DNA from: a virus | Virus record (IMG/VR): IMGVR_UViG_3300042475_005524 | Coordinates: 1-53,368 of that record | Length of the DNA stretch: 53,368 bases | Direction: 5' to 3' (one strand) | In this document: piece by piece, positions 9,266 through 42,086 of the stretch | Layout: each line of letters opens with the position of its first letter | Position numbering within the stretch: position 1 is the first letter of the stretch | Position numbers and translations under genes: made by a program | Notes under the pieces: generated by a model | Told to the model about the DNA's origin: nothing | Databases searched by the model: none | The model's input: only the letters and a program-made list of their open reading frames with translations

Positions 9266-12200
9266 ATGAGTTTATTGATAGATGTTCCGGTAAAATACAA
9301 TGCTTATAAAAAAATAGGAATTATAGCTAATGGTTCATCCGCAAATCATTCTTTATTTATTAATCCATTTAATAAAACTTTTGCTTGGGGAATAAATAGC
9401 AATAGTCAACTTGGAGATAATACAAATATCGCCAGATTTTCTCCTGTAATTATTGCGCTTTATGGATTAAATAAAACATTTTGCAAAATAAGCGCGGGAA
9501 ATAGCCACTCTCTTGCCATTGATAAAAACGGGCGCGCGTGGGCATGGGGAGTAAACGGCAATGGTCGCCTTGGCGATAATACACTCACTCAAAAATGTTA
9601 TCCGGTATTAGTGGTGGGTGTAATTAAAACTTTTTGTCAAATAAGCGCGGGAGGTAGTCACTCTCTTGCAATCGATAAAAATGGCCGTGCGTGGGGGTGG
9701 GGATATAATGGCCTTGGTCAACTTGGCGATAATTCAATTACCAGCAGGCTCACCCCCGTTAGCGTGTTAGGCGCCGTTAAAACTTTTTGTCAAATAAGCG
9801 CGGGAGCCAACCACACTCTTGCAATCGATAAAAACGGGCGCGCGTGGGCGTGGGGATTTAATACTAGCGGTCAACTTGGTGATAATTCAGTTATTAGTAA
9901 GCGGACTCCCGTTAGCGTTCAGGGAGGAGTAAAAACATTTTGCCAAATAAGCGCGGGAGCCAACCAGACTCTTGCAATCGATAAAAACGGGCGCGCGTGG
10001 GCATGGGGAATTAATACTAACGGTCGCCTTGGCGATAATTCAATTACAAGTAGGCTCACCCCCGTTAGCGTGTTAGGCGCCGTTAAAACTTTTTGTAAAA
10101 TAAGCGGGGGAGGTGGTCACTCTCTCGCAATCGATAAAAACGGGCGCGTCTGGGCGTGGGGACTTAATACTAGCGGTCAACTTGGCGATAATTCAGTTAC
10201 AAGTAGGCTCACCCCGGTTAGCGTGTTAGGCGCCGTTAAAACTTTTTGTCAAATAAGCGCAGCAAATAACCACTCTCTTGCAATCGATAAAAATGGTCGA
10301 GTGTGGGGCTGGGGATATAACACCAATGGTCAACTTGGTGATAATTCAATTGCTAGCAAGCGCACGCCAGTTAGCGTGTTGGGTGCCGTTAAAACTTTTT
10401 GTCAAATAATCGCAGGAGGTAGCCACACTCTTGCAATCGATAAAAATGGTCGCGCATGGGCATGGGGAGCTAATATATTTGGTATGATTGGTGATAATTC
10501 AACCTTTCAAAGACTCACGCCAGTTAGCGTTCTTGGCGCCATTAAAACTTTTTGTAAAATAAGCGTTGGATCTTTTTACTCTCTCGCAATCGATAAAAAT
10601 GGCCGTGCGTGGGGATGGGGTTATAACACCACTGGTCAACTTGGCGATAATTCAATTACCAGCAGGCTCACCCCCGTTAGCGTGTTAGGCGCCGTTAAAA
10701 CTTTTTGTCAAATAAGCGCGGGAAATGCTCACTCTCTTGCTATCGATAAAAATGGCCGAGCATGGGGGTGGGGATCAAACAATGGTCGGCTTGGTGATAA
10801 TACAACAGTTAGCAAGCGTACACCAGTTAGCGTACAGGGCGCCGTTAAAACTTTTTGTCAAATAAGCGCGGGAAATTCTCACTCTATTGCAATCGATAAA
10901 AATGGCCGTGCGTGGGGATGGGGTTATAACACCAGTGGTCAACTTGGCGATAATTCAATTACCAGCAGGCTCACCCCCGTTAGCGTGTTAGGCGCCGTTA
11001 AAACTTTTTGCCAAATAAGCGGGGGCCAAAACCATTCTCTTGCAATCGATAAAAACGGGCGCGCTTGGGGGTGGGGATTAAGTAGTGGTGGTCAAACTGG
11101 TTTAGGTGGAGTTCTTTTTTCATCTACTCCTGTCTCAATAACTGGAGCAATTAAAACTTTTTGCGCAATAAGCGCGGGAGATGGTTTTTCTACAGCAATC
11201 GATAAAAATGGTCGCGCATGGGCATGGGGCGCTAACAATGGCGGTCAACTTGGTGATAATTCAATAGTTCAAAAAACTTCTCCTGTTAGTGTTCTTGGAA
11301 CAGTAAGAACTTTTTGCAAAATAACTGGGGGCGGGGTACTAAATTCAAGTTCTTTTACCTTAGCTCTTGACAAAAATGGTAGAGCTTGGAGTTGGGGCTA
11401 TAATGGAGTTGGTCAACTTGGAAATAATGCTGTAACTTCTCAACTCACTCCAGTTAGCGTTCTTGGTGCAGTAAAAACGTTTTGCGAAATTAGTAATGGC
11501 GTTAACCAAGCATTTGCATTAGCTATAGATAAAAATGGTAGGGCATGGGCATGGGGAGTAAACGGGAATGGTCAACTCGGCAACAATACAGTTATTTCAC
11601 AACGTACTCCAGTTAGCGTACTCGGCGCAGTAAAAACATTTTGCAAAGTATCTGTAGGCGGATTTCACTCTCTTGCTATAGATAAAAATGGTCGCTTGTG
11701 GGCATGGGGAAATAATAGCAACGGTCAATTAGGAAATAATACTTCGGCAAATAGTGTTTGTACTCCAGTTTCTGTATTAGGGGCAATTAAAACATTTTGT
11801 CATATAGCTGGAGGAAATAGCCAATCAGTTGCTATTGATAAAAATGGTCAAGCATGGGGCTGGGGGTTTAACGGATCTGGTCAAACTGGAGACGGCTCTG
11901 CTACTGATAGATTAACTCCAGTAAGTGTTCAAGGCCAAAAGAAAACATTTTGCAAAATAGCTAGCGGTAACGGTGTTACTCTATCTATAGATAATTATGG
12001 GCGGTTATGGGCTTGGGGATTTAACGGAAACGCTCAAATAGGAGATGGCTCCACCATACCAAAAAGAACTCCAACAAGAGTTTGCAATACTAGAACTTTT
12101 TGTGAAGTAAAAGCCGCGAATAACCATGTTTTAGTAATTGAAAAAAATGGCAACGTTTGGGCGTGGGGCGGTAATGGTAGTGGACAATTAGCAAATAATT

Positions 12201-12556
12201 CTATTACAAGCGTTTTGACTCCAGTTAGCGTTGCAGGAGCAGTAAAAACATTTTGTCAAATAAACGCGCAAAACACTCATTCAATAGCTTTGGATAAAAA
12301 TGGAAAAATTTGGACTTGGGGAAGAAATGATGTTGGTCAACTAGGCATTGGTTCAACTATAGATTATGTTGCTACTCCTAGATCTCTTTATGGAAATAAA
12401 ACTTTTTGCAAAATAAATAATAAACTTGGCTCGTATTCCGCAGCTATAGATTATCAAGGTAGAGTTTGGAGTTGGGGACAGAATACCTCTAATCAATTAG
12501 GCACAAATAATTATATTACATGCACCCTTACTCCAGTAAGAGTTTGCGTCATTTAA
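9266..12556 (+). CDS. RCC1-repeat (beta-propeller) protein, 21 repeats
   Basis: 1096 residues made almost entirely of 21 repeats of about 50 residues, with the pattern (L)AIDKNGRAWAWGxNxxGQLGDN, then TPVSVLGAVKTFCxISAG. This is the RCC1/BLIP-II repeat of seven-bladed beta-propellers; 21 equals three propellers of seven blades. Repeats 3, 5, 6, 9 and 11 are almost identical in DNA, showing recent duplication or gene conversion. A Cys in nearly every TFC motif is unusual. No signal peptide or membrane segment. It closes the fibre block, so it is probably a virion-surface binding protein, but that is inference from position and family. Confidence 0.85.
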   Translation: MSLLIDVPVKYNAYKKIGIIANGSSANHSLFINPFNKTFAWGINSNSQLGDNTNIARFSPVIIALYGLNKTFCKISAGNSHSLAIDKNGRAWAWGVNGNGRLGDNTLTQKCYPVLVVGVIKTFCQISAGGSHSLAIDKNGRAWGWGYNGLGQLGDNSITSRLTPVSVLGAVKTFCQISAGANHTLAIDKNGRAWAWGFNTSGQLGDNSVISKRTPVSVQGGVKTFCQISAGANQTLAIDKNGRAWAWGINTNGRLGDNSITSRLTPVSVLGAVKTFCKISGGGGHSLAIDKNGRVWAWGLNTSGQLGDNSVTSRLTPVSVLGAVKTFCQISAANNHSLAIDKNGRVWGWGYNTNGQLGDNSIASKRTPVSVLGAVKTFCQIIAGGSHTLAIDKNGRAWAWGANIFGMIGDNSTFQRLTPVSVLGAIKTFCKISVGSFYSLAIDKNGRAWGWGYNTTGQLGDNSITSRLTPVSVLGAVKTFCQISAGNAHSLAIDKNGRAWGWGSNNGRLGDNTTVSKRTPVSVQGAVKTFCQISAGNSHSIAIDKNGRAWGWGYNTSGQLGDNSITSRLTPVSVLGAVKTFCQISGGQNHSLAIDKNGRAWGWGLSSGGQTGLGGVLFSSTPVSITGAIKTFCAISAGDGFSTAIDKNGRAWAWGANNGGQLGDNSIVQKTSPVSVLGTVRTFCKITGGGVLNSSSFTLALDKNGRAWSWGYNGVGQLGNNAVTSQLTPVSVLGAVKTFCEISNGVNQAFALAIDKNGRAWAWGVNGNGQLGNNTVISQRTPVSVLGAVKTFCKVSVGGFHSLAIDKNGRLWAWGNNSNGQLGNNTSANSVCTPVSVLGAIKTFCHIAGGNSQSVAIDKNGQAWGWGFNGSGQTGDGSATDRLTPVSVQGQKKTFCKIASGNGVTLSIDNYGRLWAWGFNGNAQIGDGSTIPKRTPTRVCNTRTFCEVKAANNHVLVIEKNGNVWAWGGNGSGQLANNSITSVLTPVSVAGAVKTFCQINAQNTHSIALDKNGKIWTWGRNDVGQLGIGSTIDYVATPRSLYGNKTFCKINNKLGSYSAAIDYQGRVWSWGQNTSNQLGTNNYITCTLTPVRVCVI
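9500..12000 (+). repeat. ~153-bp tandem RCC1 DNA repeats
   Basis: Near-identical blocks recur (for example aactttttgtcaaataagcg followed by cactctcttgcaatcgataa) at roughly 153-base spacing, reflecting the protein repeats. Similarity is highest between 9650 and 11050 and decays to both sides. Confidence 0.85.
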
Positions 12557-12592: not shown

Positions 12593-13372
12593 ATGGTTAA
12601 GCCCATAATTGTCGTAACTCATGAGCGTTCTGGCACTCATTTATTGATTAATTGCATTAACCACACTAATAATGGACAGTTTTATACAATTGGTTACACA
12701 TCAAACAGAAACGATTTTAATTTAAAAGGATATCTTCATACTACGCACAAAGATATCCTATGTAATGCGTATATGCCAAACTCGGTCTGCAAATCCCACC
12801 ATCAAGTAGACTTTATGGTGAATTATATAGATTTTTTATTTGCAAAGTATAAAGTTATATACGTAAAACGAAACTTGCCAGATGTTCTAACCAGTTATTA
12901 TAAATTTATTCCAAAGCCAGAGGAAAAAGATTTTCCAAAGATAGAAGAATGGGTTTTTAGCGAGCCAGACAGAGTTGGGCGCAAATATTTACAGCCTTAT
13001 TCTCCAGATCCTCACGTTATAATTGAACCGGAAAATTACGTTCATCGTTGGTACTTGCATACGAGCGGCTGGCTAAAATACGCCAATCAAATGCTAGTAG
13101 TTAATTACGAAGATATGCTGCTTGATTACAGAAATCAAAAGCAAAAGATTGAAAATTATATTGGCAGAAAAATTGCCGACAAAATTCCAGACGTAAACGA
13201 TAAGTCGCTTCCAAATTTTGGCCCAGTTAAAGGAATCATTGGTGGGCATAAAGAACTTATGTCAGAAGAGCTTCAGAAAAAAATTGAAGATCAAGTTTCT
13301 CTTTATACAATTAGAGAGAAGCATGAAAAAAGAGAACCTAGTTCTAGCCATCTCAATTGGGGATTATTATAA
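12593..13372 (+). CDS. PAPS-dependent sulfotransferase
   Basis: 259 residues from the ATG at 12593; an upstream in-frame TTG at 12566 is less likely because the fold begins at KPIIVVTHERSGTHLL. That segment is the 5'-phosphosulfate-binding loop of P-loop sulfotransferases. YVKRNLPDVLTSYY (about residues 88-101) matches the 3'-phosphate-binding motif. The family moves sulfate from PAPS to hydroxyls of sugars or small molecules. It overlaps the GT8-GT9 gene by 50 bases, so the product may sulfate a glycan built by its neighbours (inference). Phage-borne copies are unusual. Confidence 0.85.
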   Translation: MVKPIIVVTHERSGTHLLINCINHTNNGQFYTIGYTSNRNDFNLKGYLHTTHKDILCNAYMPNSVCKSHHQVDFMVNYIDFLFAKYKVIYVKRNLPDVLTSYYKFIPKPEEKDFPKIEEWVFSEPDRVGRKYLQPYSPDPHVIIEPENYVHRWYLHTSGWLKYANQMLVVNYEDMLLDYRNQKQKIENYIGRKIADKIPDVNDKSLPNFGPVKGIIGGHKELMSEELQKKIEDQVSLYTIREKHEKREPSSSHLNWGLL

Positions 13373-14921
13373 CGAAGTCGCAAAGATTACTTTGCCCTCG
13401 ATCAAGAAATACGCCGAGAAAATCGGCGCCGATTTCTTAAACGTTACAGAGTTCAATAAGTTTTATATTACGCAAAAATGGAATAAGTTCCTGATTGCGG
13501 AACTCCTAAATCAATACAAGAGAATCATTTATCTTGATGTTGATATTTTAATCAGAGATGATTGTCCGAATCTTTTTGAGGTTGTGCCCGAAAATAAATT
13601 GGGCATGTTTAACGAGGGCCGATATTCGCCGCGATTTGAATATCTTGAGCAAGCTTCAGAGTACTACAAAGAGCCACTAAAGAAGTGGGGCGGTAAGTTT
13701 TACAACTCTGGCGTGATGGTTATTTCGCGCATTCATAAGCAAATTTTCAGACTTCCAAAAGGTGTTGACTTTGTAGAAACTGATCAGCCCTACATTAACC
13801 TCCGAATCCTAAATGATAAGGTCGAGATGCATGACTTGCACTACGACTTTAATCGTATGGATATTCTTGATAAGTTCTGTGGCATTTCTCGCCTAAATTC
13901 TTATATTGTCCACTATGCTGGCGCTCCAAAGGATGTCCAAATGGGCGTTATTCTTAAGGATATCGACCAATGGGAAAGGGATAAAGAAGAGGGCTACAAG
14001 TACAAGCGTAATATCTTGATTTCTGTTACTGCTGGAATGGGCGATCAACTTTGCTCAGAGCCCGCTATCCGATACACTCAAAAAATGTATCCTGATGCAA
14101 ATATTACTGTAGTGTCGCATTTCCCGCGCTTGTTTGAGCATCTTAGCTGCCCAGTAATGACTTACGATCAGTGGAAGGGGATCAATGATGCTTTGCTTAC
14201 AATGTATACTTGTCCAGAAGACGAGCATTCGGAGCACAAGATGTCTCACGTTCTCTTCCATCCTACCGATTTCGCTTCAATGTCCATGATTAAGCGAACA
14301 ATCCCAAACAACGACAAAACAATTCAATTAAAATTGGACGCCGAGGATGTTTCTTATGTTATTGATTTGTTCAAGGACAAAGATCCTAAGAAACCTGTTG
14401 TTGTGGTTCATGCTGGCAAGTGGTGGCCTTCAAAGACCTTGCCCCTTGATTGGTGGCAGCAGATCGTGAATAAGCTTTCAGAGAAGCTGACTGTTGTTCT
14501 CATTGGTAAGACTATTGATGAGAAGCAAGGTTATCTCCCTGTACAAATTCCACAAGGCGGCTATGATCTGAGAGACCTCACAACTCTTGGTCAGCTTTTT
14601 GCCCTTATTTCGCTATCAAGATGCTTGGTCACTAACGATTCCTCGCCCCTGCATATCGCGGGCGCGTTTGATAACTGGATCGTGACATTCCCAACTTGCA
14701 AGCACGAAGACCATATCCTGCCATTCCGCAATGGAACTCAAGCTTATAAGACCAAGGCTCTACGTAAGGACCTTCTCCTAGACGACCTTGAGATTCGCCA
14801 CACAGAGTTCAAGCACGACACTATTGACTTGATTCCAAAAGGGAAAACAGTCCTTGAGTATCTCCCAGAGGTCGATACTGTCGTTAAGGAAGTAATGGAC
14901 ATTTACGACAACAAGCGATGA
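13323..14921 (+). CDS. bifunctional glycosyltransferase: GT8-like plus GT9 heptosyltransferase-like
   Basis: 532 residues from the ATG at 13323, preceded by purine-rich AGAGAAG. An earlier frame start at 13218 is rejected because it only reads through the sulfotransferase. The N-terminal half is GT8-like: YLDVDILIRD carries the DxD metal motif, followed by NSGVMVI and DQPYINLR. The C-terminal half (from ILISVTAGMGDQLCSEPAIR) is GT9/heptosyltransferase-like with VVVVHAGKWWPSKTLPLDWW and VTNDSSPLHIAGAF. The fusion implies consecutive sugar additions. The gene looks GC-richer than its neighbours, suggesting different expression demand or separate origin. Confidence 0.85.
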   Translation: MKKENLVLAISIGDYYNEVAKITLPSIKKYAEKIGADFLNVTEFNKFYITQKWNKFLIAELLNQYKRIIYLDVDILIRDDCPNLFEVVPENKLGMFNEGRYSPRFEYLEQASEYYKEPLKKWGGKFYNSGVMVISRIHKQIFRLPKGVDFVETDQPYINLRILNDKVEMHDLHYDFNRMDILDKFCGISRLNSYIVHYAGAPKDVQMGVILKDIDQWERDKEEGYKYKRNILISVTAGMGDQLCSEPAIRYTQKMYPDANITVVSHFPRLFEHLSCPVMTYDQWKGINDALLTMYTCPEDEHSEHKMSHVLFHPTDFASMSMIKRTIPNNDKTIQLKLDAEDVSYVIDLFKDKDPKKPVVVVHAGKWWPSKTLPLDWWQQIVNKLSEKLTVVLIGKTIDEKQGYLPVQIPQGGYDLRDLTTLGQLFALISLSRCLVTNDSSPLHIAGAFDNWIVTFPTCKHEDHILPFRNGTQAYKTKALRKDLLLDDLEIRHTEFKHDTIDLIPKGKTVLEYLPEVDTVVKEVMDIYDNKR

Positions 14922-18658: not shown

Positions 18659-18955
18659 ATGACGGGCAAGGACTATTTAAATGACAGGGTAAAGGTTAAT
18701 ACTTCTGATCTTTTCAAGCGTATGCTTGGGGTATTGGAGGATATTAAGCACGAACACGACCGACAATTCGGGATTTTATACTCTTCTGCACCCGATTCCT
18801 TTAAGCCAGTGGTCAAACAAGCTAACTATCTTGACGAAAGTCAGATGGCTTGGCTCAGAAAAAAAGTGCTGGATATGGGCAATGAATCTATCCGCAAAAT
18901 GACAACTGAAATGGATTTAATCCGCATTGAATTTCATCATACATTTAAACAATGA
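18659..18955 (+). CDS. small helical protein before tail chaperone genes
   Basis: 98 residues, mostly helical and charged (LFKRMLGVLEDIKHEHDRQF, RKKVLDMGNESIRKM). No family recognised. First gene of the rightward tail operon, with an aaggtaaaaggt leader as ribosome-binding region, and its stop overlaps the next ATG. Role unknown. Confidence 0.6.
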   Translation: MTGKDYLNDRVKVNTSDLFKRMLGVLEDIKHEHDRQFGILYSSAPDSFKPVVKQANYLDESQMAWLRKKVLDMGNESIRKMTTEMDLIRIEFHHTFKQ

Positions 18956-19683
18956 AAGAACTATTCGACTTCACGGTCAAAATTAACAAAGAAGTAGAGA
19001 AGACCGAAACTCGCGAAGAGGACGGCAAGACCATCACTGTTACTAGCAAGGTAAAGGAGGATGTGCCTGTTCGTATCGTTTTCAAGCAGCCTTCTCGCCG
19101 CGACACTGAGGAGGCCGAAATTCAATTTAGCGTTGAAATGTCAAACTGCATCAAGAAGGGTATTTTGACAAAGGGAATGTTGGTTAAGAAGTACTCTGAT
19201 ACAGGCGGCATTTTTTCAGAGGATGACGATAAGCGTTTAACAGCAATGTATATTGATATGGCTAAGCTTCAGAGAGAGTATGTTGCCCTCGAAAATGGTA
19301 ACGCTGAGGAAAAGCAAAAGGCGAATATCGTCTTGGAAAAGCTCGCCGCTACAAGAAAGGAAATGGTCGATCTTGAGTCTACCTATCTTAATCTGTTTAA
19401 TAACACAGCGGATATTATCGCCCAAAATAATATCATCCGCTGGTTCTGCGTTAACCTCGCTTATAAGCAGGAAGAGAGCGGCAAGATTGAGCCGCTGTTC
19501 TTTGGCTCAACCTATGAGCAAAAGCTCGATAATATGAGAGATCTTGATGAGGCAGAAGATCCTCTGTATCAAGCAGCTTTTAGAAAGCTAGCTACATTTG
19601 TTTCTTTCTGGTACTTCAGCAAGAATGCCACAAAGGACGACTTTAAGAAGCTAGAGAAAGACCTTGAAGAAGGAAAGTATTAA
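18952..19683 (+). CDS. putative tail assembly chaperone, upstream frame (gpG-like)
   Basis: 243 residues. Beta-like start (FDFTVKINKEVEKTETREED, then VPVRIVFKQPSRRDTEEAEI) and a helical, charged body ending KKLEKDLEEGKY. No database-style signature seen. Its position as the first of two overlapping genes immediately upstream of the tape measure gene is where phages with long tails encode the G and GT tail assembly chaperones. The downstream frame overlaps by 20 bases and has no ATG. Larger than the typical gpG, so two independent proteins remain possible. Confidence 0.55.
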   Translation: MKELFDFTVKINKEVEKTETREEDGKTITVTSKVKEDVPVRIVFKQPSRRDTEEAEIQFSVEMSNCIKKGILTKGMLVKKYSDTGGIFSEDDDKRLTAMYIDMAKLQREYVALENGNAEEKQKANIVLEKLAATRKEMVDLESTYLNLFNNTADIIAQNNIIRWFCVNLAYKQEESGKIEPLFFGSTYEQKLDNMRDLDEAEDPLYQAAFRKLATFVSFWYFSKNATKDDFKKLEKDLEEGKY

Positions 19684-20653
19684 CGATACTGATTTATTCT
19701 TGGCGTTCTGCCAGATAGTTGAGGGTTGCTCTGAGAAGATCTTCTTGGGCAACCCTGTTTTTATTAAGCATATCGCTATTAAAGAGCGTGAGTTTTTTAA
19801 TAAAAAATATAAAACCTATCTCGCGCACGCTATATCAAAAGGGTTACCTAAAGAGGAGGATGCGCTAAAAAAAGCGATAGATGAAGAGCTTTGGTCAGAA
19901 AAAGAAGATGATGATATTAGGGTTTCGGAGAGGTATATTGAAACTCTTAACATAACAAAAAAGAAAGTATTTAAAAAGCTCCAGATTCAAGAAATTGAAA
20001 AAACCTTGAAAGAAGAGAAGGAAAAGATTGCAAAGAAGCTTGCAGAAAAAAAGCAGATTTTAGGGAAAACTGCTGAAGACTATGCATCAAACAGAGCTAG
20101 CGACTATTTGATATACAGCTGCTTTTACAAAGACCGTGAATTGACTAAACTGTTGTTTTCCGAGGAAGAATTTGAAGAGATATCAACTAAAGAATTAGAA
20201 GAGTGTATTCTAGTATATAATAGTTATTTTAACGACATTTCTGACTTAACTATCCAGCATATAGCGCTTTCTGACTTTTTTCAGCCAAATTATCTTGTTC
20301 TGGACTATCCTAACGAGCTTTTTGGTAAACCGATGGTAAAACTTTCGGAAAATCAGGTAAGATTATTAATTTATTCCAAAATATTTAAAAATATATTTGA
20401 GACTATTGAGCACATTCCTGATGGAATTAAGAAAGATCCAGAGGCTCTATTGCAATACAAGGACAAGAGTCAGGCTCAAAAAGAGTTCGAAAGCAAGACT
20501 AGAAGCAAAAAAAAGGGTAATGTCGAGGGCGCCGAAATGGTTTTTGGAGCTACAAAGGAAGAGATTGGCAAAGATACTAAAACATTAAAGGATGTCATGA
20601 AAGATAAAACATCTCTTTCAATGGAAGACTTGATGAAATTGCACGATCAATAA
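19664..20653 (+). CDS. putative tail assembly chaperone, downstream frame (gpT-like, possible frameshift product)
   Basis: Up to 329 residues in the frame one base ahead of the preceding gene (+1, equivalently -2). The frame opens after a TAG at 19652-19654. The only early starts are TTG at 19664 and 19697; no ATG occurs until close to the C-terminus. The overlap (19655-19683) contains gaagaaggaaag, a purine run that could permit slippage. The product is strongly helical and charged (KKKVFKKLQIQEIEKTLKEE). It ends 36 bases before the tape measure start. Either a TTG-initiated protein or, more interestingly, a frameshift extension. Confidence 0.6.
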   Translation: MKKESINDTDLFLAFCQIVEGCSEKIFLGNPVFIKHIAIKEREFFNKKYKTYLAHAISKGLPKEEDALKKAIDEELWSEKEDDDIRVSERYIETLNITKKKVFKKLQIQEIEKTLKEEKEKIAKKLAEKKQILGKTAEDYASNRASDYLIYSCFYKDRELTKLLFSEEEFEEISTKELEECILVYNSYFNDISDLTIQHIALSDFFQPNYLVLDYPNELFGKPMVKLSENQVRLLIYSKIFKNIFETIEHIPDGIKKDPEALLQYKDKSQAQKEFESKTRSKKKGNVEGAEMVFGATKEEIGKDTKTLKDVMKDKTSLSMEDLMKLHDQ

Positions 20654-20689: not shown

Positions 20690-23600
20690 ATGGCAAAAGG
20701 AATCACAGTACCTGTAGTCCAGTCGGGTTTAGAAGCTTCTATCGAAGCAGCTGCCAAGAAAGCTGGGCCGCTGAACCTTTCTGCTACAGTCGATCCTAGC
20801 TCATTCAAAAGACTTTCCCAACCGCTCGGAAGAGTAAGTGGTTTGGCTACAGAGTTTGAAAAGTCCATTGCCGCCTCAAATGCGCGCGTTATCGCATTCG
20901 GCGCTTCGGTAGGAATTATCAACGGTGTGCAAAATGCTTTTGCGTCGCTTGTTAAGACGACAATAGAGGTTGAAAAGAGCCTAGCAAATATTGCAGTGAT
21001 CAGCGGCAAAACTACTGACCAGCTTCAGCCGTTTTCAAGAGCGCTTTTTGAAATCGCAAAGAATACCGCTCAATCGTTTCAGACTGCGTCTGAAGCTGCT
21101 TTAGAGTTTTCTAGACAAGGTTTAAGCCTTGAAGAGACGTTAAAGAGAACCCAAGACGCTCTTACTCTTACTCGTTTTACAAGCTTGAGTGCTGCTGAGG
21201 CGGTAGATGTATTGACTGCTGCGGCAAACTCTTTCGGCGCAACTGGAATCACGACTAGCGAAATTCTTAATAAACTCGTTGCGGTTGACACCAAGTTCGC
21301 AGTTTCCGCCGAAGACTTAGCCAAGGGCTTGTCCCGTGCAGGGTCGATTGCTCAGGAAGTTGGAGTTAACTTTGACGAGTTAAATGCTATCGTCACCATT
21401 GCGCAAGAAAGAACTGCTCGCGGTGGCGCGGTTATCGGTAACGCTTTCAAGACAATCTTTAGTAGAATTAGATCGGAGGAAACGATCCAAGCCCTACAAA
21501 GCATTGGTATTTACTCATTTGATGCGGAAGGAAGATTGAAACCAGTTGTAAGTCTTCTTGAAGAATTAGCTGGAAAAATTAATACTCTTGACGAAACAAA
21601 GAAAATTGAAGTTCTTGAGGCTATCGCTAGCAAGTACAACATCAACGTCTTAACGGCGCTTGTTGATGATTTGAGTTCGACCGCTAGTAAATTTAGAGAG
21701 GCTAGAGATGTTTCTTCTGGCGCGCAAAGCGAAGCATATCAGCGCCAGATTGAACTTAATAAAACTCTTGACGCAGTTATCAGCAGAGTGACAAACTCTG
21801 CGGCTCAACTTGCTGACACTCTTGGCAAAATCGGCGTAACTGACAGCTTAAAGTCACTTTTAAATTTCTTTGATAGTATTCTTACTGGAATTAATGACGT
21901 TGTTGATTCCGAGGGAATTGGTGGCACTATCGCCAAGGGTCTAATATCTGGAATCAGCGGGGTATTTTTCAAGATTGGTATCCCTCTTCTTTTAGCCATA
22001 TTTGTCAAGTTAACAAAAGATATCGCGCAGTTTGGCACTGAATCGCTAAAAACTATCTTAGGAATCAATAAAGAAGTTAGAGAGCGCCAAGCTTTGGAAC
22101 AGGCTGTTGTTAATACTTTGATTAAAGATCAGCAAGTAATGGCATCGATCTTGTCTCTTAGCGGAGACCGTAGGAAGCAGGAGGAATATTTACTTGGCGT
22201 ATATAACCGGCAGCTTGCGGCACTTCAACAGGTTCAGAGTATTGCCTCGACAGTCGCTCCTGCGTTGCAAGCCGCTGGATTGAGCGCTACATCTGGAACA
22301 GTTAAAAAGAGGGCGGCAGAGGGTTATTTGCCAGCGCAAGAAGCTGCTGACGTAAGGCGCGGAGTTGGTGGTGCAGACAAGAGCGCAAAAGTAGTCAAGA
22401 TTCCAAACTTTTCTTTTGGAGACGGCAAGAAAGGCACAATGTACGCAAATACAAGCGAATACATTGTTCCTAATTATAACGGAGGCGATGGAAGTGCTAT
22501 CTTTAATAAAGATATGGTTCGCAAGTATGGAATGCCAGAAAATGCTAAAAAGATAAATGCGGCAACTGGATATATTCCTAATTTTGTAGAAGAATCTCCC
22601 AAGTACTCAACAGCAAAAGAAAAGGAATTAGCTAAGAAAAAGGAAAGAAGAGAGAATTACAATAATAGAGTCGCTTCTTCTTTTGGTATAGCAGCCCTTT
22701 TAGTAAAAAGTGAAGCTGAACAAAGGGAAGTCGAATCAGAAACTGCTTATGGCAAGATGCCAAAAACAGATGCTAATTTTAATCAATTTTCAAGAGTAAA
22801 GTTTCCAGTTTATGGGTTAAAGCAGTCAGGTTTAGATCAAGCAAAGCTTGGGCTTTTACCAGAAATAGAAGAGCCTTTACGACGGGCTGCTTTTGATGTT
22901 GGTCTAGCAGCTTCTTCTCAAATTTCTGGAAGACAAGTTGCTCCTGAAGAGTATAAAACTTCATTTAAAAAATCGCTCGGTGGCGCTGGAGCTTTTGGCG
23001 GAACAATTGGATCAATTTTTGAATCTGCTGCCAGAACTGCATTTAAATTCGAAAATAGCCCAGACAATACTTTAGACGTTCCAGTGGTTTCAGATTCAGT
23101 ACGAACTGCATTTGGAATAACTGGAGGAGAAAGAAGTGCGGATCTTAAGGGATCTGTTAGCGATGGAGTTTTAAGAAGATTCGCAGATCAAGTAATAAAT
23201 AACGGCCTAATTAGAGACGAGACTCCTAACGTTAAGCAGGCGATAGCCTCAAAAGGCTATATTCCAAATTTTGCTAAAGAAAAAGGAATTGGAGGTTTAG
23301 CTGGAAAGGTTATAGAGATTTTAGCTGGAAGAGTTTTTGAATCTTTAGTAAAAGATTCAGATACAGTTGATCTTTATGAAAATGCAGCTAGACCAGACAT
23401 TGATCTAAACCCAGAAGAAAGGTCAAAAGAGATAAAATTATCTTTGGATGCAGCCGCAAAAGATGATCGCGTAGGTAAAAAAGTAAGTCAAGGAGGAAAA
23501 GGTTTTACGGTAGTAGTCCCACAAAATGCTCAAAATGAGCCATCTGCTGTTAAAAAATTACAAGATAAAAAAGTAAAAATACAAAGGTGGCCCATACGAA

Positions 23601-26600
23601 GAGAAAAAGCTTTTGAAGGCGCTAGAAAGCTATTAGAAATATATGAAAATGTAGATAGAAGTAAAATTGGCAATCCGTTACCATTACCAGGCAAACAAAA
23701 AGGCAAACGAAATGATGTCACGGCAGTAAAAGGCTATATCCCAAATTATGCTGAAACGCTTTCTGAAATGTATGATTGGGATGGTACGATCATTCCCAGA
23801 ATGGCCGGTAAGCCAGAAGAATATATCCAATCTCTTCAAAAGTTAGAAAAGAAAGATCTTTTACCCATTGGTAAAGAGCTAGCGTCTTCAAAAGAAAAAT
23901 TTGATATTGCGACCGCCAGACCGATTCTATTTAGAGAGCCGATTAAACAGACGGCTCAAAGACTTGGCCTTAATGTTGAAAGAATTTTTCCATTAGGTTC
24001 AATGTTTGAAAACCGTAGAACCATGGGCGTCAAGGGAAAACCAAGAAAGCTTTATGGCCCAGAAAGAAAAGCTTTGTTTGCTGAAAAAACTAATAGATCA
24101 ATCGTTGATAATCAAGAAGATGTTTTAGCCGCTTTAGGAAGTCGCGGCATTGATGCGAATTTAAGAAATCGCGGCGCTTTTGGGTTTATTCCAAATTTTG
24201 CTTCTCAAAACGCAATAGACGCGATGAGAAGAATCATCTCAGACCCTGCGGCTCCACAAGGAGAAAAAGATGCAGCGTCGTTAAAACTTTCTCAACTTAC
24301 AAAAGTAAGTTCATTAAATAATCCAAGAGTTGCGGCGCAAAAGACCACAAAAATAAAGGTTCCGATAACCCAAGAAGACAAGGACTATCTTAATCAGAAC
24401 AAAGAAAAAATTGTCGCAGGAATGGGCAGAAGTTTTGGAATGCTGTTTAATTTAGATGCTTTGGAGATGGGGGATTTAGGCTACGTAAAACGTTTAGATC
24501 CAATAGTTGCGAAAAAATTGTCGGAAATAGCGCAAAAACAAGGTGGCAGAGATTCTATCAGATCTTTGGTTGATTTCGGATCTGCGGCGCGAGGATATAT
24601 TCCAAACTTTGCCGAAAATGAGCCGCTGAAAGAAGCTATTAGTAGAGAGATGGGTGCGGGCGTGCCTGCCGCGCGCGTGCGCGTGACGCAGGACGGTAGA
24701 CTAAAGAACCCCAAGAACCCAAATGGTCTTGCCGTCATCAATACTAGAGACGAGCCAAATGGTAAGATTCCAAATGATTTTAGAGAAAGAGGCATGCGCG
24801 CCGCTATGGCGAGTAGAGGCTTTGTACCGAATTTTGCAGATGAAGATACTAGTATTAATGTTGGGGGCGTTTTTGGTATGGGCTCTAACAAGGTAGATTT
24901 AAGCGGAATTCAAACAGCAACAACAGAGCTTCTTGCAAAATTAAAAAATTCAACTATAGAGTCTGATCAGTTTAATACTGAACTAGAGTCTTTAACAAGA
25001 GCTTTTAATGACTTAAAAACCAAAGCACTTAAAGACTTAAAAAACAAAACAGAAAATGCTGGTGATGCTACTAAAAAATATTCGGATGCTGTACAACAAA
25101 AAGCAAAAGCTATTCAGGCTCAAAAGACTGCGCCGACAACAGGTGGAGGCGCAACAGGTGGAGACGTAGCAGGCCGAGGAAAAGGTCTAGATATTGGTAA
25201 ATTTCTTGTTTTACAAACGGCAGTAGTTGGTTTAACTTCCGCGATTCAATCTGCAACTGAGCAAGGAAGCGCTGCTGCTAATGCATTGGAAGGTATTTCT
25301 GCGATTGGATCGGGACTTGCGACCTTTGTCGCCATAGGAACAAGTCTTTCTCCTCAGTTTAGGATATTAGCTGCCGCTGCCACTGCTTTAGCATCCGCTT
25401 TCCCGCTTTTATCAAGACTTTACGAAGACTTTAAAGATCCAGCGCAAAGAGCAGCGGAAGCGCTTTCCAAACTTGCTAAAGAAGCAGAAAAAACAGGAAG
25501 AAAGATAAGTCCAGAAGAATTTTTGGCTATTTTTGAAGAGCAGGATAAAATTAAAAAAGCAGAAGAAAAGAAAAAAAGCGCGACACAGCAAATTCAGGAA
25601 TCTTTAAGTAAACAAGGCTTAGGGGCTGGCACGGAAACATTACAGCAGCTTTATGCAATAGCAAATACTTTAGACCTTATAAGTAAAGACGGGATTGTGC
25701 AACAAGCAGAGTTGCAAAAAATTATAAGAACTTCACAAAAAGCTCTACCTGTCAGGGGTGGAGCCCCTGGTTTAGGTTTTGTAAGTACAGAAACTGGTAT
25801 CGATATTGGTGCTACGATACAAAGTGCAAGAGAAAAAGTAACTGAAAAACGTTTGGCCGACGCAAGAAAACCGCAAACAGAAGATCGTACAGTTAAAACT
25901 GTAAAAGCTGAAAATGAATTGTTGAAAATAAAATTTGATATTTTAAATAGTATTGTAAAAAAAGAACTAGAAATTAATAATGTTTATGCCAACAGGATAA
26001 GAAGTATTAATAGCGAAAACACTGCTTTAGAAAGATCTAAAACAATTTTACTCGAAACAAAATTTTCAGAATTACAAGCTTCTCAAGAAAGACGGAAAAT
26101 TAGAGCAGAAGAAGCTAAGGCGATAAGCGAAAATGCAAATAATTTAAGATCTTCTTTGGCTGGATTGCAAGACCAAGGGTTGGGAAATATATTTGGAGAG
26201 GCAGACACTGGAAAACTGCAAGGCTTATTAGAGGCTTTTAAAACAGGAGGAGTTGGGTCAGAAGCATTTGGAAAGGCTTTTCAAGCTGCTACGGCTCGCG
26301 TTGGACAGGATGGAAAGCCTATAGCTGGCACCAATATAGCGCAGCTTTCTTCTGCAACTCAGCAGGATGTTTATAAAAATTTAAATGAAGCTGCGAACAA
26401 TGAAGCTAGAGCAAGAAATAATGCAGTTAACAGAGTAAGAGATATAGATCAAGCTCAAAAAGATTTTCAATCTTCAACCCAGCTTTTAATAAATGAAACA
26501 AATTTATTAAATGCTATAATTTCTGGAACTCCTGTTTTAGTTGGAAAATTAAATCAAACTTTTTCAGGCGCAGCAAAGTACGAAGAGATCCTTGGAGGCG

Positions 26601-29311
26601 AGCGTGCAAAACTTTCAAATTCGTTATCAAAAGCAGCACTGCAAAATAAAATTAGCATTGATTTAGCCGAGGAAAATTATGCAAGTGAAGTGGGCTTGCT
26701 TGCATTAAGAATTAATTTGGAGGAAGAGCTTAGAAAAAGAGTTCCAATAGAGGCTAGAGTGCGCAAGGATGCAATGGAGCTTAATAGAGCCACTTCTGAA
26801 AGAATAGATCAGTTGGGAAGAGATGCCCGTAATGCTGGACCGAGACTCAAGGCTCAAAGAGACATTCTGGATGCTGAAAGCCTAGTTATAGAATCTGAAA
26901 ATGCCATTAATGAAGGAAATATTGATTTGGCTAATGTAACTTCCTTGAGAAAATCAACTTTAGCTAAATTAATACAATCGGAAAAAAAAGCTGAAGAAGA
27001 GACATTGGCTTCTGTTCAAATAATTGGAAAAAAAATAGGAGCCAACAGAGCGGCTCTTGTCAGAGAAACTGGTTTGATAAACGCAGAAAATAATTATTAC
27101 AATATAGTTGAAAGACTTGCTGACATAAGCGCCTTAAGAGAATCTACTTTAGCGAAACTAAATCAATCAGAAAGACAGGCTGAAATTCAAAATCAGGCCG
27201 CAATTGAAACTGCATCAGAAAAATATGATACTGATCTTAATGCGATTAGGAGACAAGCTGAACTGACTGAGGCGCAAAATCGAGCGGCTGAAAATACCAA
27301 TCAATTAAATGCAGTGGTTATTGGTCTCAGGTTAGCCAGAGCAAAACTTGTTGAGTCAGAAAGAAAAGCTGAAGAAGAGAATCAGATCGCAATTCGAATG
27401 ATTGGTCAGAGTTATCAGGCTGATATTGATTCGACAAAGAGAAAAATTGAATATGCTCAAGCTTTAATTGGGCAGATAGATGCGGCAAAAGTAAATGAAA
27501 AAGTAACCGGAGAAATGACTCTGGAGGCTTTGAATTTGATAAATTCTTTGAGAGAGGCTCAAGCTAAATTTAATAACATCGACGATATAGAAGTAGGAAA
27601 TGAAGCTTTAAGAACGCGCACAAATATTCTTGGAGAAACTACTTCTACAATATCAAGGGGATTAGCGCTTTCAAATCTGGGGATAGGTGGAGAACTGGAG
27701 GCTCAAGCTTTTGCCAAGGTAGCGGAGCAGAGAAGAGCCGGAAGAAAGGCTGAAGACATCAGCGCATCAGAACTTTATGATATCTCTAAGGGTAGAAACT
27801 TAAGCATAAGACAGGGGCTGTCCATACAAAAATCGGCTCTTCTGGACGAAGCTCAGACATTCCAAGATATTATTGGTAAATCAACACCAAAGCTTTTTGC
27901 AGATGGTATGGCCGAAGCTATGCAAGCGGCTCTGAATCAAGCAGACGATCTTGGGGGCGCATTAAGAAATGTTGCATTGACCTTCCTTAAAAATCTTCAA
28001 AGCGCATTTTTGCAAAGCGCTTCAAGGCAAATTGTTTCTTCAATTCTTCCAAATGCTGTTCCTGGTATGAAAGAAGGTGGCTATGTAAAAGGTTATGCTT
28101 CAGGTGGTCTTGTAACAGGGGGCAGTGGCTACAAAGATGATGTTCCAGCAATGTTAAGCGAAGGCGAATATGTCATCCGTAAGTCTTCTGTAAATAAATA
28201 CGGTGCGTCTAACCTTCAAAAACTGAATTCGGGCGAGGCTCCTAAATTTGCCGATGGTGGTATCTTCTTGCCCGGTGTTCGCGGGCAGGGGCAAATTTCT
28301 GGATATAAAGATTTAACTGCTTTTGCCAAGCAAACTACAACAAGCGGAGCAACTGATGTATTAGCTGGCGGCGCAACAACTGCTTTTGCCAGCCTTGAAG
28401 ATCAAAGTTCAAGACTTTCTGCGTATGCGCTGATGAACGAAGACGATACTATTAATCAAGAGATTCGTAGTGCCCAAGAGCAGGCGATGAACATAATGGC
28501 GGAAAGAGAAGCCTACAGAACTGCGGAAAGAAAGGCGTTTCAAAAGCAGCTAATCGGAACAGTAGCTTCTGCTGCTTTAAGTTTTGGCGTTGGAAAGTTG
28601 GGTTCGATGTTTACTACAAAAACTCCTGCGGCAATTCCAAATTTAGGATTCGATGCTGCAAAGGCATCTTCTAATATTGGGCAAGTTGCGCTTCCAACTC
28701 CAAGCATGCTGTCCGCGCCAATAACAACTCCGAGTATAAGAACTCCAAGTACATCTTTTGGAGACTTTATGTCTCCAGCAAGAATCCAGACTCCAAATTA
28801 TGGAAGTGTGCTTTCGATGTTCCAGCCGCAAATGCAGTCTCCAGTTCTTATGGGATCTAGTATATTCTCAGCGCCTCGCGCTCCTGGTCGTGCTTACGGC
28901 GGGATAGTCAAGCGCTATAATACTGGTGGCCCAACAGACGATATCCCAGCCCTCCTTATGGGTGGCGAATATGTAATGAATCGCCAAGCCACCAAGAAAT
29001 ATGGCAGGCAGTTCTTCGATTCTATTAATCAAGGCCGCGCCCCAAGATTTGCAGACGGCGGCAATGTTTCAACCGCAGAGCCAAGCTTTGCTGAGAAAGC
29101 CGCTTCATCTTCCGACTCAAAGGCCACAGGTGCAACTAACGTTAGCATCAATATCAACGTTACTAGCGGAACATCAGATACCCAGACTCAGGGTGACACC
29201 AAGCAAGGCGGCGTTGATTATAAGAAGATGAGCGAGCAGATCAAACAAGTCGTTATCCAAACAATCAACGAAGAAAAGAGGCTAGGTGGATCACTAAGAC
29301 CGCGAAACTAA
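20690..29311 (+). CDS. tape measure protein with inserted enzyme-like modules
   Basis: 2873 residues, one of the largest genes here. Residues ~50-350 are a TP901-type tape measure domain (ALEFSRQGLSLEETLKRTQD, AVDTKFAVSAEDLAKGLSRA, ARGGAVIGNAFKTIFSRIRS), with a hydrophobic segment near 410-440. Six linkers of form G(Y/F)(I/V)PN(F/Y) lie at residues 627, 856, 1015, 1165, 1302 and 1377. Between them sit a PD-(D/E)XK-like module (E778, D796, D818-x-K820), a second (E884, D903/D905, E914-x-K916) and a HAD-like module (D1029-x-D1031-G-T, T1075, D1140). A second hydrophobic region (~1500-1580), long coiled coils, and two copies of a GGY/GEYV(I/M)-FADGG motif near the C-terminus follow. At ~1.5 angstrom per residue it would specify a very long tail. 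AAAGG seven bases upstream supports the start. Confidence 0.92.
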   Translation: MAKGITVPVVQSGLEASIEAAAKKAGPLNLSATVDPSSFKRLSQPLGRVSGLATEFEKSIAASNARVIAFGASVGIINGVQNAFASLVKTTIEVEKSLANIAVISGKTTDQLQPFSRALFEIAKNTAQSFQTASEAALEFSRQGLSLEETLKRTQDALTLTRFTSLSAAEAVDVLTAAANSFGATGITTSEILNKLVAVDTKFAVSAEDLAKGLSRAGSIAQEVGVNFDELNAIVTIAQERTARGGAVIGNAFKTIFSRIRSEETIQALQSIGIYSFDAEGRLKPVVSLLEELAGKINTLDETKKIEVLEAIASKYNINVLTALVDDLSSTASKFREARDVSSGAQSEAYQRQIELNKTLDAVISRVTNSAAQLADTLGKIGVTDSLKSLLNFFDSILTGINDVVDSEGIGGTIAKGLISGISGVFFKIGIPLLLAIFVKLTKDIAQFGTESLKTILGINKEVRERQALEQAVVNTLIKDQQVMASILSLSGDRRKQEEYLLGVYNRQLAALQQVQSIASTVAPALQAAGLSATSGTVKKRAAEGYLPAQEAADVRRGVGGADKSAKVVKIPNFSFGDGKKGTMYANTSEYIVPNYNGGDGSAIFNKDMVRKYGMPENAKKINAATGYIPNFVEESPKYSTAKEKELAKKKERRENYNNRVASSFGIAALLVKSEAEQREVESETAYGKMPKTDANFNQFSRVKFPVYGLKQSGLDQAKLGLLPEIEEPLRRAAFDVGLAASSQISGRQVAPEEYKTSFKKSLGGAGAFGGTIGSIFESAARTAFKFENSPDNTLDVPVVSDSVRTAFGITGGERSADLKGSVSDGVLRRFADQVINNGLIRDETPNVKQAIASKGYIPNFAKEKGIGGLAGKVIEILAGRVFESLVKDSDTVDLYENAARPDIDLNPEERSKEIKLSLDAAAKDDRVGKKVSQGGKGFTVVVPQNAQNEPSAVKKLQDKKVKIQRWPIRREKAFEGARKLLEIYENVDRSKIGNPLPLPGKQKGKRNDVTAVKGYIPNYAETLSEMYDWDGTIIPRMAGKPEEYIQSLQKLEKKDLLPIGKELASSKEKFDIATARPILFREPIKQTAQRLGLNVERIFPLGSMFENRRTMGVKGKPRKLYGPERKALFAEKTNRSIVDNQEDVLAALGSRGIDANLRNRGAFGFIPNFASQNAIDAMRRIISDPAAPQGEKDAASLKLSQLTKVSSLNNPRVAAQKTTKIKVPITQEDKDYLNQNKEKIVAGMGRSFGMLFNLDALEMGDLGYVKRLDPIVAKKLSEIAQKQGGRDSIRSLVDFGSAARGYIPNFAENEPLKEAISREMGAGVPAARVRVTQDGRLKNPKNPNGLAVINTRDEPNGKIPNDFRERGMRAAMASRGFVPNFADEDTSINVGGVFGMGSNKVDLSGIQTATTELLAKLKNSTIESDQFNTELESLTRAFNDLKTKALKDLKNKTENAGDATKKYSDAVQQKAKAIQAQKTAPTTGGGATGGDVAGRGKGLDIGKFLVLQTAVVGLTSAIQSATEQGSAAANALEGISAIGSGLATFVAIGTSLSPQFRILAAAATALASAFPLLSRLYEDFKDPAQRAAEALSKLAKEAEKTGRKISPEEFLAIFEEQDKIKKAEEKKKSATQQIQESLSKQGLGAGTETLQQLYAIANTLDLISKDGIVQQAELQKIIRTSQKALPVRGGAPGLGFVSTETGIDIGATIQSAREKVTEKRLADARKPQTEDRTVKTVKAENELLKIKFDILNSIVKKELEINNVYANRIRSINSENTALERSKTILLETKFSELQASQERRKIRAEEAKAISENANNLRSSLAGLQDQGLGNIFGEADTGKLQGLLEAFKTGGVGSEAFGKAFQAATARVGQDGKPIAGTNIAQLSSATQQDVYKNLNEAANNEARARNNAVNRVRDIDQAQKDFQSSTQLLINETNLLNAIISGTPVLVGKLNQTFSGAAKYEEILGGERAKLSNSLSKAALQNKISIDLAEENYASEVGLLALRINLEEELRKRVPIEARVRKDAMELNRATSERIDQLGRDARNAGPRLKAQRDILDAESLVIESENAINEGNIDLANVTSLRKSTLAKLIQSEKKAEEETLASVQIIGKKIGANRAALVRETGLINAENNYYNIVERLADISALRESTLAKLNQSERQAEIQNQAAIETASEKYDTDLNAIRRQAELTEAQNRAAENTNQLNAVVIGLRLARAKLVESERKAEEENQIAIRMIGQSYQADIDSTKRKIEYAQALIGQIDAAKVNEKVTGEMTLEALNLINSLREAQAKFNNIDDIEVGNEALRTRTNILGETTSTISRGLALSNLGIGGELEAQAFAKVAEQRRAGRKAEDISASELYDISKGRNLSIRQGLSIQKSALLDEAQTFQDIIGKSTPKLFADGMAEAMQAALNQADDLGGALRNVALTFLKNLQSAFLQSASRQIVSSILPNAVPGMKEGGYVKGYASGGLVTGGSGYKDDVPAMLSEGEYVIRKSSVNKYGASNLQKLNSGEAPKFADGGIFLPGVRGQGQISGYKDLTAFAKQTTTSGATDVLAGGATTAFASLEDQSSRLSAYALMNEDDTINQEIRSAQEQAMNIMAEREAYRTAERKAFQKQLIGTVASAALSFGVGKLGSMFTTKTPAAIPNLGFDAAKASSNIGQVALPTPSMLSAPITTPSIRTPSTSFGDFMSPARIQTPNYGSVLSMFQPQMQSPVLMGSSIFSAPRAPGRAYGGIVKRYNTGGPTDDIPALLMGGEYVMNRQATKKYGRQFFDSINQGRAPRFADGGNVSTAEPSFAEKAASSSDSKATGATNVSININVTSGTSDTQTQGDTKQGGVDYKKMSEQIKQVVIQTINEEKRLGGSLRPRN

Positions 29312-35480: not shown

Positions 35481-36203
35481 ATGAAGGTAACAGCTTTAAT
35501 GGCTACATGCGGTAGGCACTACTACTGCGAAAGATCTGTCGCAATGTTTTTGGCGCAAAATTACCAAAATAAACATTTAGTTATAATTCAAAATTCAGAA
35601 AAAGAACAAAAGTTAGACCAGAATTATGATAATATCACACTGCTTAATAAATTTGGATTTTCTAATTTAGGATCTATTTATAATTACGCTTTAGATTTTA
35701 TTCCTCAAGATACAGACGTAATTTGTTTGTTTGACGATGATGATATGTATATGCCTGAGCATGTTACAGAGGGGGTGAACGGTTTAAAAAGAGGCGGCAA
35801 GAAGGCGTATAAGCCAAAATTCTCTTTTATGCAAATGAGATACGACATCTCTAAAATAAATAACGTCCTAGAACCGAGTTGGTTTATTAGTGCGGATGTT
35901 ATAAAAAAAGAAAAATTTAGAGAAGAAAGCGCAAAGCATCATTTCAACTGGATTGACTGGTGCCTAAAGAATAAACAAATTTATGTAGATCCAGAAGGTC
36001 CGTCCACATTAATTTATACTTGGGGAAATCAAGAGCGCCCGTGTTACAAAACAAGCGGATATGGTAAGCGCCCAGATGCTTTTGAACAATACAGAAAAAA
36101 CTCTCAAGATCACGGAGATGGAGTAATAACTCCAAATTCAAAAGAAGAAATAAATAAAATTTACGAAAAATTCTATCAATGGAAGCCAAAATCCACGCAG
36201 TAA
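35481..36203 (+). CDS. glycosyltransferase family 2-like
   Basis: 240 residues, one base after the mucin-like gene. KVTALMATCGRHYYCERSV is the GT2 nucleotide-sugar N-terminus and CLFDDDDMYMPEHV holds the metal-binding Asp run (residues ~80). WFISADVIKKEKF and NWIDWCL fall where the acceptor-side motifs are expected. Cytoplasmic, no membrane helix. Likely begins or extends an O-glycan; donor unknown. Overlaps the next gene by 25 bases. Confidence 0.8.
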   Translation: MKVTALMATCGRHYYCERSVAMFLAQNYQNKHLVIIQNSEKEQKLDQNYDNITLLNKFGFSNLGSIYNYALDFIPQDTDVICLFDDDDMYMPEHVTEGVNGLKRGGKKAYKPKFSFMQMRYDISKINNVLEPSWFISADVIKKEKFREESAKHHFNWIDWCLKNKQIYVDPEGPSTLIYTWGNQERPCYKTSGYGKRPDAFEQYRKNSQDHGDGVITPNSKEEINKIYEKFYQWKPKSTQ

Positions 36204-41436: not shown

Positions 41437-42086
41437 ATGTTTTTTGCCAAAGCTGTAAAAAAAATATTGCCAATATAAATCCGTGCGTATCTAATCTTGA
41501 TAGAATTCATTTTCCATTTCAAAGAAGAAAGGATTCAGATATCCCAGAATTGCAGGATGTAAAGAAAATAAAATGCAAGTATAAAAAATTAAAATATTGC
41601 ATATGCGCTTTAAGAAGAAAAAAAATTCAATATTGGTACTTATTTGATGAAATTGTCAGTAATAATATAGACGAGTTATGCACTACATTAAACGCTAGAT
41701 GGATAGTTTCAATTTGTGATACATATATAGACTATGGAAGTGATGAAGAAAAATGTGGATCAATTGCAGTATCGACATTAAATTTTTGCTTTACACTTAA
41801 CAATTCTATATATCATTCAAAAGAAAAAATAAATCCAAAATCAAATATAATAGGCAAGATATGCTCTGTTCCGTATGACACTAGCTTTATGTTTAAAAAC
41901 GAGAATGATTTTTTTGAAAACTATCTTAAAAGATTTATTTATTCAATAAAGAGATCGGATAAAATTTATCGCTTTGGTATGGCTTTTTTACAAAGACAAA
42001 TAAAAGACAAGAATACTTTATTTTTCTATGTAAATAGTTTAAATGAAAAAAAATTTAAAATAGATGAACAAATTTCAAATAGTTAG
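41433..42086 (+). CDS. Cys-containing protein of the glycan island, unrecognised
   Basis: 217 residues, ATGA overlap upstream and 23-base overlap with the next gene. Not recognised. The N-terminus FCQSCKKNIANINPC could bind metal. The middle has ARWIVSICDTYIDYGSDEEK. Its close coupling to a glycosyltransferase-sulfotransferase fusion suggests a helper or modifying role, by context only. Confidence 0.5.
   Translation: MNVFCQSCKKNIANINPCVSNLDRIHFPFQRRKDSDIPELQDVKKIKCKYKKLKYCICALRRKKIQYWYLFDEIVSNNIDELCTTLNARWIVSICDTYIDYGSDEEKCGSIAVSTLNFCFTLNNSIYHSKEKINPKSNIIGKICSVPYDTSFMFKNENDFFENYLKRFIYSIKRSDKIYRFGMAFLQRQIKDKNTLFFYVNSLNEKKFKIDEQISNS

Follow-up and report, generated by a model that had tools for sequence, protein, structure and literature searches.

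Background

Effectors delivered by the virion have been described in phage heads and in injection systems derived from phages, and the enzymes reported in phage tape measure proteins (TMPs) are mainly wall-degrading. The polyvalent proteins of phages and conjugative elements (Iyer et al. 2017, PMC5512222) combine several unrelated enzyme domains in one polypeptide and are predicted to accompany the DNA into the host; those of phages are described there as likely to be packaged in the capsid, and the word 'tape' is absent from the text of that paper. The MuF polymorphic toxins of temperate phages (PMC5576092) are head proteins with exchangeable, C-terminal toxin-like domains, for which delivery with the phage DNA has been proposed. 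In bacterial contractile injection systems (CIS) the effectors Tme (PMC11126660) and Sle1 (PMC13277306) have a TMP-related carrier with a single exchangeable C-terminal domain, a nuclease or one of another function, and no linker array of the kind reported here is described in the available portions of those two papers. In this study we examined a cassette-bearing TMP of 2873 residues encoded by a viral record, IMGVR_UViG_3300042475_005524 of IMG/VR, the whole of which (53,368 nucleotides, positions 1 to 53,368) was analysed and is called the window below. It is suggested that this TMP probably doubles as a virion-borne carrier of effectors, residues 627-1382 forming a polymorphic cargo region of linker-bounded cassettes in an otherwise conserved TMP.

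Several disparate enzyme activities are predicted in the one TMP polypeptide, which is a feature of polyvalent proteins, and the two repertoires overlap (GNAT, peptidase and possibly kinase and ADP-ribosyltransferase). They differ in that the carrier here is the TMP, and in the signature linker between cassettes and the exchange that takes place at it. Unlike the MuF toxins, the TMP is a tail protein with internal arrays; it lacks the N-terminal MuF head-morphogenesis domain, and genome scans of GTDB with the DEP and P-loop cassette alignments found no relatives of these cassettes. The DUF4157 core of Tme is also absent, and the multi-cassette array of this phage TMP is internal rather than C-terminal; when the full-length protein was scanned against Pfam, PhageMin_Tail alone was matched, with neither DUF4157 nor a MuF domain. 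On these features the cassette-bearing TMP appears to work like polyvalent proteins, MuF toxins, Tme and Sle1 but not to be a member of the last three. What is new is the TMP as vehicle together with a linker-based grammar, and what is of a known kind is the virion-delivered multidomain effector.

Linkers and the exchange of cassettes

The open reading frame (ORF) that carries the cassettes matched many PHROG families described as tail length tape measure protein. Its TMP domain, and its place as the largest gene of a tail block in which the order of flanking genes is conserved across relatives, identify it by sequence as a real tape measure. The relatives are IMG/VR contigs, labelled L007, L011, L015 and so on. 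The cassette block recurs at 100% identity in four of them (L007-L010), which excludes an assembly artefact for the window ORF, and a frame or assembly artefact was rejected as the source of the cassettes on this ground.

The window TMP contains six hexapeptides of the form G[YF][IV]PN[FY], each exactly at the residue where a reading made from the DNA letters alone (the sequence-only reading) had placed it (Table 1). Only 0.0005 are expected from shuffled copies of the protein, and a chance origin was rejected. At the DNA level the linker pattern occurs six times in the window, always on the + strand and within the TMP gene. When the cassette block, the N-terminal domain and the P-loop, HAD and DEP cassettes were used as queries, the IMG/VR relatives yielded 74 distinct proteins that bear linkers. 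A profile of the 299 linkers with sufficient flank has the consensus [AG][AS]xG[FY][IV]PNFA, in which P and N were fixed by the search pattern itself. The first linker is preceded by 626-642 residues in most complete members and by 539-555 in the remainder. Linkers occurring without cassettes had been named as a finding that would weaken the modular model, and none was found outside the TMP set in 2.8 Mb. No occurrence of GYIPNF was found in the full texts searched, a coverage that left out preprints and most subscription papers.

The sequence-only reading had also predicted that cassettes would be swapped between tape measures, and this was borne out by exchange at the linkers. The window and L015 are 98.0% identical in DNA over 4590 bp ending at nucleotide 22590, five bases past linker 1; there is then no match until 23732, the first base of linker 3, where homology resumes at 95.7% over 8.5 kb. 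The block exchanged has 388 residues in the window (the nuclease and nuclease-like cassettes) and 598 in L015 (a P-loop cassette, another nuclease and a cassette of family F6). L012 and L014 have the same two breakpoints relative to the window, and those of L016 lie within a few bases of them. The breakpoint after linker 1 falls at 22586-22591 in comparisons with L012, L014, L015, L016 and L018, and homology restarts exactly at 23732 with L012, L014 and L015. With L035 only the DEP cassette is common within the block, from linker to linker and starting at linker 5. Over all pairs at 75% identity or above, 72% of homology ends lay within 6 nucleotides of a linker, where random points gave 7%; the 1148 alignment ends counted are mutually non-independent, and 65% remain within this distance when same-place repeats are removed. 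TMP architectures vary in the kind, number and order of their cassettes. Judged from these alignments, the segments between linkers are exchangeable cassettes, and with dN/dS (the ratio of non-synonymous to synonymous substitution rates) at 0.08-0.28 in the pairs compared they are under purifying selection.

Coincidence of homology breakpoints with the linkers is also what would be seen if the linker were a DNA-level recombination site, such as the scar of a mobile element, and the peptide motif were incidental. However, the synonymous codons differ among the six window linkers and among the linkers of five of the six further contigs searched. Since codons vary while the peptide is kept, selection acts on the peptide, and this explanation, which we consider extremely improbable, was rejected. 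We infer instead that the linker is a recognised protein motif marking the boundaries of cassettes. Modular architecture, whole-cassette exchange at linkers, conservation of catalytic residues and purifying selection are all evident at the sequence level.

Predicted functions of the cassettes

The cargo of the window TMP most likely consists of a PD-(D/E)XK nuclease, a second nuclease-like domain, a HAD phosphatase, a 137-residue domain and a closing DEP module. All the motif residues named by the sequence-only reading are present (E778, D796, D818 and K820; E884, D903, D905, E914 and K916; D1029, D1031, G1032, T1033, T1075 and D1140).

In PD-(D/E)XK nucleases an acidic residue in the first core helix is followed by D and then by (D/E)-x-K. 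When 46 homologues of cassette 1 were aligned (15-57% identity), E778 was kept in 45, with D in the other, and D796 and K820 in all 46; at position 818, 31 sequences have D and 15 have E, with no other residue, and position 834 is K or Q throughout. Outside the linker only G774, F777, E778, D796 and K820 are identical in at least 45 of the 46 sequences, so that three residues named beforehand are among the five best conserved of about 220 columns (a probability by chance of about 5e-6). The conserved pattern fits the PD-(D/E)XK rule, with K/Q in the following helix. In the AlphaFold2 (AF2) model, with a predicted local distance difference test score (pLDDT) of 89 and a predicted template modelling score (pTM) of 0.79, helix 137-159 carries E152 (=E778) and strand 190-193 carries D192 (=D818); helix 199-211 and a short strand come after the D192 strand, and the middle strands are short. 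By its residue pattern and the order of its secondary structure, the grounds used here because Foldseek gave no significant match, cassette 1 is a predicted PD-(D/E)XK nuclease, and it would be a divergent member of that class. A PDB profile search with the nuclease alignment gave nothing relevant.

The same arrangement had been claimed for two cassettes. It stands for cassette 1, where the catalytic residues are kept in distant homologues, but is weak for cassette 2, which has three sequences and a model of low confidence. In these three, at 33-34% identity, E884, D903, E914 and K916 are all conserved, suggestive of a nuclease-like domain. The acidic residue conserved is D903; D905, offered as an alternative in the sequence-only reading, aligns with S in L011 and L019.

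The HAD reading of cassette 3 was upheld. D1029, D1031, T1033, T1075, K1127 and D1140 are invariant across 15 sequences and correspond to HAD motifs I-IV (DxDxT, T/S, K, D), and the model has a pLDDT of 84-95 over most of the HAD stretch and of 64-79 in some blocks. Foldseek of this cassette against the PDB matched the HAD Rossmannoid fold, with T4 polynucleotide kinase/phosphatase (Pnkp) the best (E=6.7e-5), followed by bacterial Pnkp1 and then many other HADs. Comparison of predicted folds, the check put forward with the earlier claims, thus favoured the HAD assignment and was uninformative for the nuclease. On its motifs and modelled fold, cassette 3 is a putative HAD phosphatase. A PDB profile search with the HAD alignment gave nothing relevant.

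Cassette 3 may be a 3'-phosphatase of the Pnkp type: T4 Pnkp is the best fold match of the HAD cassette, but profile comparison of that cassette with T4 PseT was insignificant, and a P-loop cassette is absent from the window. The P-loop cassette of sister TMPs, compared with the T4 PseT profile, matched in the P-loop stretch only, and its own profile is unspecific, matching many P-loop proteins. Both P-loop and HAD cassettes are present in several sister TMPs and would, as a pair, correspond to the two parts of Pnkp; this is a lead rather than a result.

The cassette 4 family (F5) is found in a different order in L054. The DEP module (..NP.GLAV.NTRDEP..) is usually the last in the block and has 185 confirmed matches in IMG/VR. 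Pfam gave no match to the window's cassettes when these were searched alone.

In model phages the length of the tail is determined by that of the TMP, and TMPs tolerate insertions, so it might be supposed that the cassettes are inert filler lengthening the tape and that their enzyme residues are relics or due to chance. Against this, the residues of the active sites rank with the best-conserved positions apart from the linker, dN/dS is well below 1, and near-identical phages differ by about 210 residues in the block with the rest conserved. We therefore give the filler explanation hardly any credence.

Among the cassettes of sister TMPs, those above Pfam cut-offs are SNase and GNAT. One in L187 (8190-8792) is a staphylococcal-nuclease homologue (PF00565 E=7.7e-6). 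In PADLOC and NCBIfam, cassettes other than SNase and GNAT gave weak single matches. When a strict PD-(D/E)XK pattern was applied to 33 cassette families, F1, F6 and F19 fitted in most or all members, F6 and F19 being further families of the sister repertoire, and F13 gave one chance-like match; several further families are similar by eye only. A cassette of L117 (5367-6839) has a P-loop followed by a nucleotidylyltransferase-like domain, with TKGH and ISGTKAR motifs recognised by eye. This NMNAT-like module has weak Pfam and PHROG matches; the cassette looks like NadR and could possibly serve in NAD-related counter-defence. Cassettes with a HEASH zinc-peptidase motif and no Pfam match occur in L118 (7404-8000) and L117 (7392-8000). 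Stretches in L171 (2511-3278) and L182 (1089-2012) that resemble LYRG and SFSTS recall ADP-ribosyltransferases by eye only, as do other sister cassettes kinases.

Proposed delivery into the host cell

Tape measures occupy the tail tube until ejection, when they exit from it. From this behaviour we infer that the enzymes may be delivered into the host cell during DNA entry. The cassettes would ride the tail tube in a narrow or extended form, probably unfolded, and exit with the TMP on ejection, with a transmembrane-like segment (about residues 420-440) upstream of them; they would emerge at or through the inner membrane and fold there or inside. The enzymes might then act in the first minutes of infection, the targets being nucleic acid of the host, of rivals or of defence for the nuclease, and nucleic-acid ends or nucleotides for the phosphatase. 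The transmembrane-like segment was retained in most relatives in a hydropathy scan. In phage lambda the TMP is proximity-labelled by an inner-membrane partner during injection (PMC13190303), and a CIS effector related to TMPs is reported to have an active nuclease domain (PMC11126660). The set of NMNAT-like, GNAT and nuclease cassettes suggests that the targets are cytoplasmic and that the enzymes serve in conflict, either with host defence or with rival elements.

The cassettes could also be real enzymes that do their work while the virion is assembled or at the site of entry, for example in the trimming of DNA at the tail or in the periplasm, and not cytoplasmic effectors. They do sit inside a structural protein, and the known TMP enzymes are muralytic and envelope-acting, as indicated by references listed in PMC6145125. 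On the other hand, the enzymes of sister TMPs (SNase, GNAT, NMNAT-like, P-loop, HAD) are of kinds suited to cytoplasmic substrates, a Pfam scan of 51 cassettes showed no family of peptidoglycan enzymes, and rapid exchange is more in keeping with conflict than with an unchanging role in assembly; we regard an assembly or entry-site role as quite unlikely.

A further possibility refines the carrier model and is not exclusive of it. The linkers may be cleavage sites and the block a polyprotein from which a protease of the host or the phage cuts free enzymes, either before injection or after it. For polyvalent proteins, processing by metallopeptidases of their own has been proposed (PMC5512222), two sister TMPs carry the HEASH peptidase-like cassette, and the linkers are conserved as a specific motif, not as a flexible spacer. 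However, the window has no recognised peptidase cassette, and no S78 prohead protease was detected in it or in six relatives, records that are possibly fragments. We also know of no protease site that the linker motif fits, and cleavage at the linkers seems unlikely overall.

Several points weigh against a TMP that carries effectors. Folded domains of 150-250 residues would have to fit within the tail lumen, and no means of sparing the co-delivered phage DNA from the nuclease was identified. The cassette 1 model had no significant Foldseek match in either the PDB or BFVD, and the structure model of cassette 2 is poor. Linker-bearing TMPs form a large family in IMG/VR, and the collections searched contain no cultured member of it; when 50,697 phage records were searched by tblastn, nothing matched the cassettes, the first-linker block or the DEP module, and the TMP N-terminal domain alone found matches there, at about 20-30% identity.

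In its fullest form, which we put forward tentatively and with rather less conviction, the carrier model describes the TMP of a class of tailed phages as an interchangeable effector magazine. Cassettes, many of them nucleases, would sit between copies of a dedicated linker peptide and be threaded through the tail, released at the linkers in the host and exchanged like polymorphic-toxin domains, providing a first blow against defence or rival elements. If true, the phage tail would have a defined and swappable cargo region (nucleases, phosphatases, acetyltransferases and others), the linker grammar could be used to mine metagenomes for effectors and counter-defence enzymes, and there would be a system in which to study the passage of large enzymes through the tail tube.

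The tape measure gene and its neighbours

Table 1. Features of the tape measure gene and the adjoining ORFs in window coordinates (aa, amino acid residue).
Feature	Position	Strand	Basis
Two overlapping ORFs immediately 5' of TMP, synteny kept	18952..20653	+	Position and overlap
Cassette-bearing TMP, 2873 aa	20690-29311	+	ORF reading, Pfam, PHROG
PhageMin_Tail domain, aa 123-312	21056..21625	+	PF10145 E=2.1e-27
Transmembrane-like segment, ~aa 419-439, 5' of cassettes	21944..22006	+	Hydropathy scan
Linker-like YIVPN within EYIVPNYNGGDG block, just 5' of linker 1	22463..22477	+	Direct reading
Linker 1, GYIPNF, aa 627	22568..22585	+	Motif scan
Cassette 1, predicted PD-(D/E)XK nuclease domain (E778, D796, D818-x-K820, Q834)	22586..23254	+	Homologue alignment, model
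Linker 2, GYIPNF, aa 856	23255..23272	+	Motif scan
Cassette 2, possible second nuclease-like domain (E884, D903, E914-x-K916)	23273..23731	+	Three sequences
Linker 3, GYIPNY, aa 1015	23732..23749	+	Motif scan
Cassette 3, HAD phosphatase-like domain (D1029, D1031, T1033, T1075, K1127, D1140)	23750..24181	+	Alignment, Foldseek
Linker 4, GFIPNF, aa 1165	24182..24199	+	Motif scan
Cassette 4, 137-aa family F5, no known domain	24200..24592	+	Pfam, architecture comparison
Linker 5, GYIPNF, aa 1302	24593..24610	+	Motif scan
Cassette 5, DEP (NTRDEP) module	24611..24817	+	IMG/VR matches
Linker 6, GFVPNF, aa 1377	24818..24835	+	Motif scan
C-terminal tape region, linker-free	24836..29308	+	ORF reading, motif scan

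After the cassettes, the tape region at residues 1385-2384 (nucleotides 24842-27837) cannot be aligned as DNA between the window and L012, L014, L016, L018 or L035, although both of its flanks can, and this region evolves fast. The ORF pair upstream of the TMP has a 20-nucleotide overlap, its second ORF lacks an ATG start, and neither ORF had a PHROG match; by position and overlap the pair resembles tail assembly chaperones made by programmed frameshift. A tail sheath was sought in seven records (the window and six relatives, possibly fragments) and was not found.

Glycosyltransferases of families 8, 9 and, weakly, 2 were recognised at 13218-14921, 35481-36203, 42064-43227, 44150-45319 and 46825-47925 of the window, the same ranges including a Sulfotransfer_2 domain fused to a nucleotide-sugar transferase. 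From their sequence matches these genes are a large sugar-modification cluster in the phage tail region. PHROG matches indicate numerous RCC1-like (regulator of chromosome condensation) repeats in a protein of 1096 residues encoded at 9266-12556.

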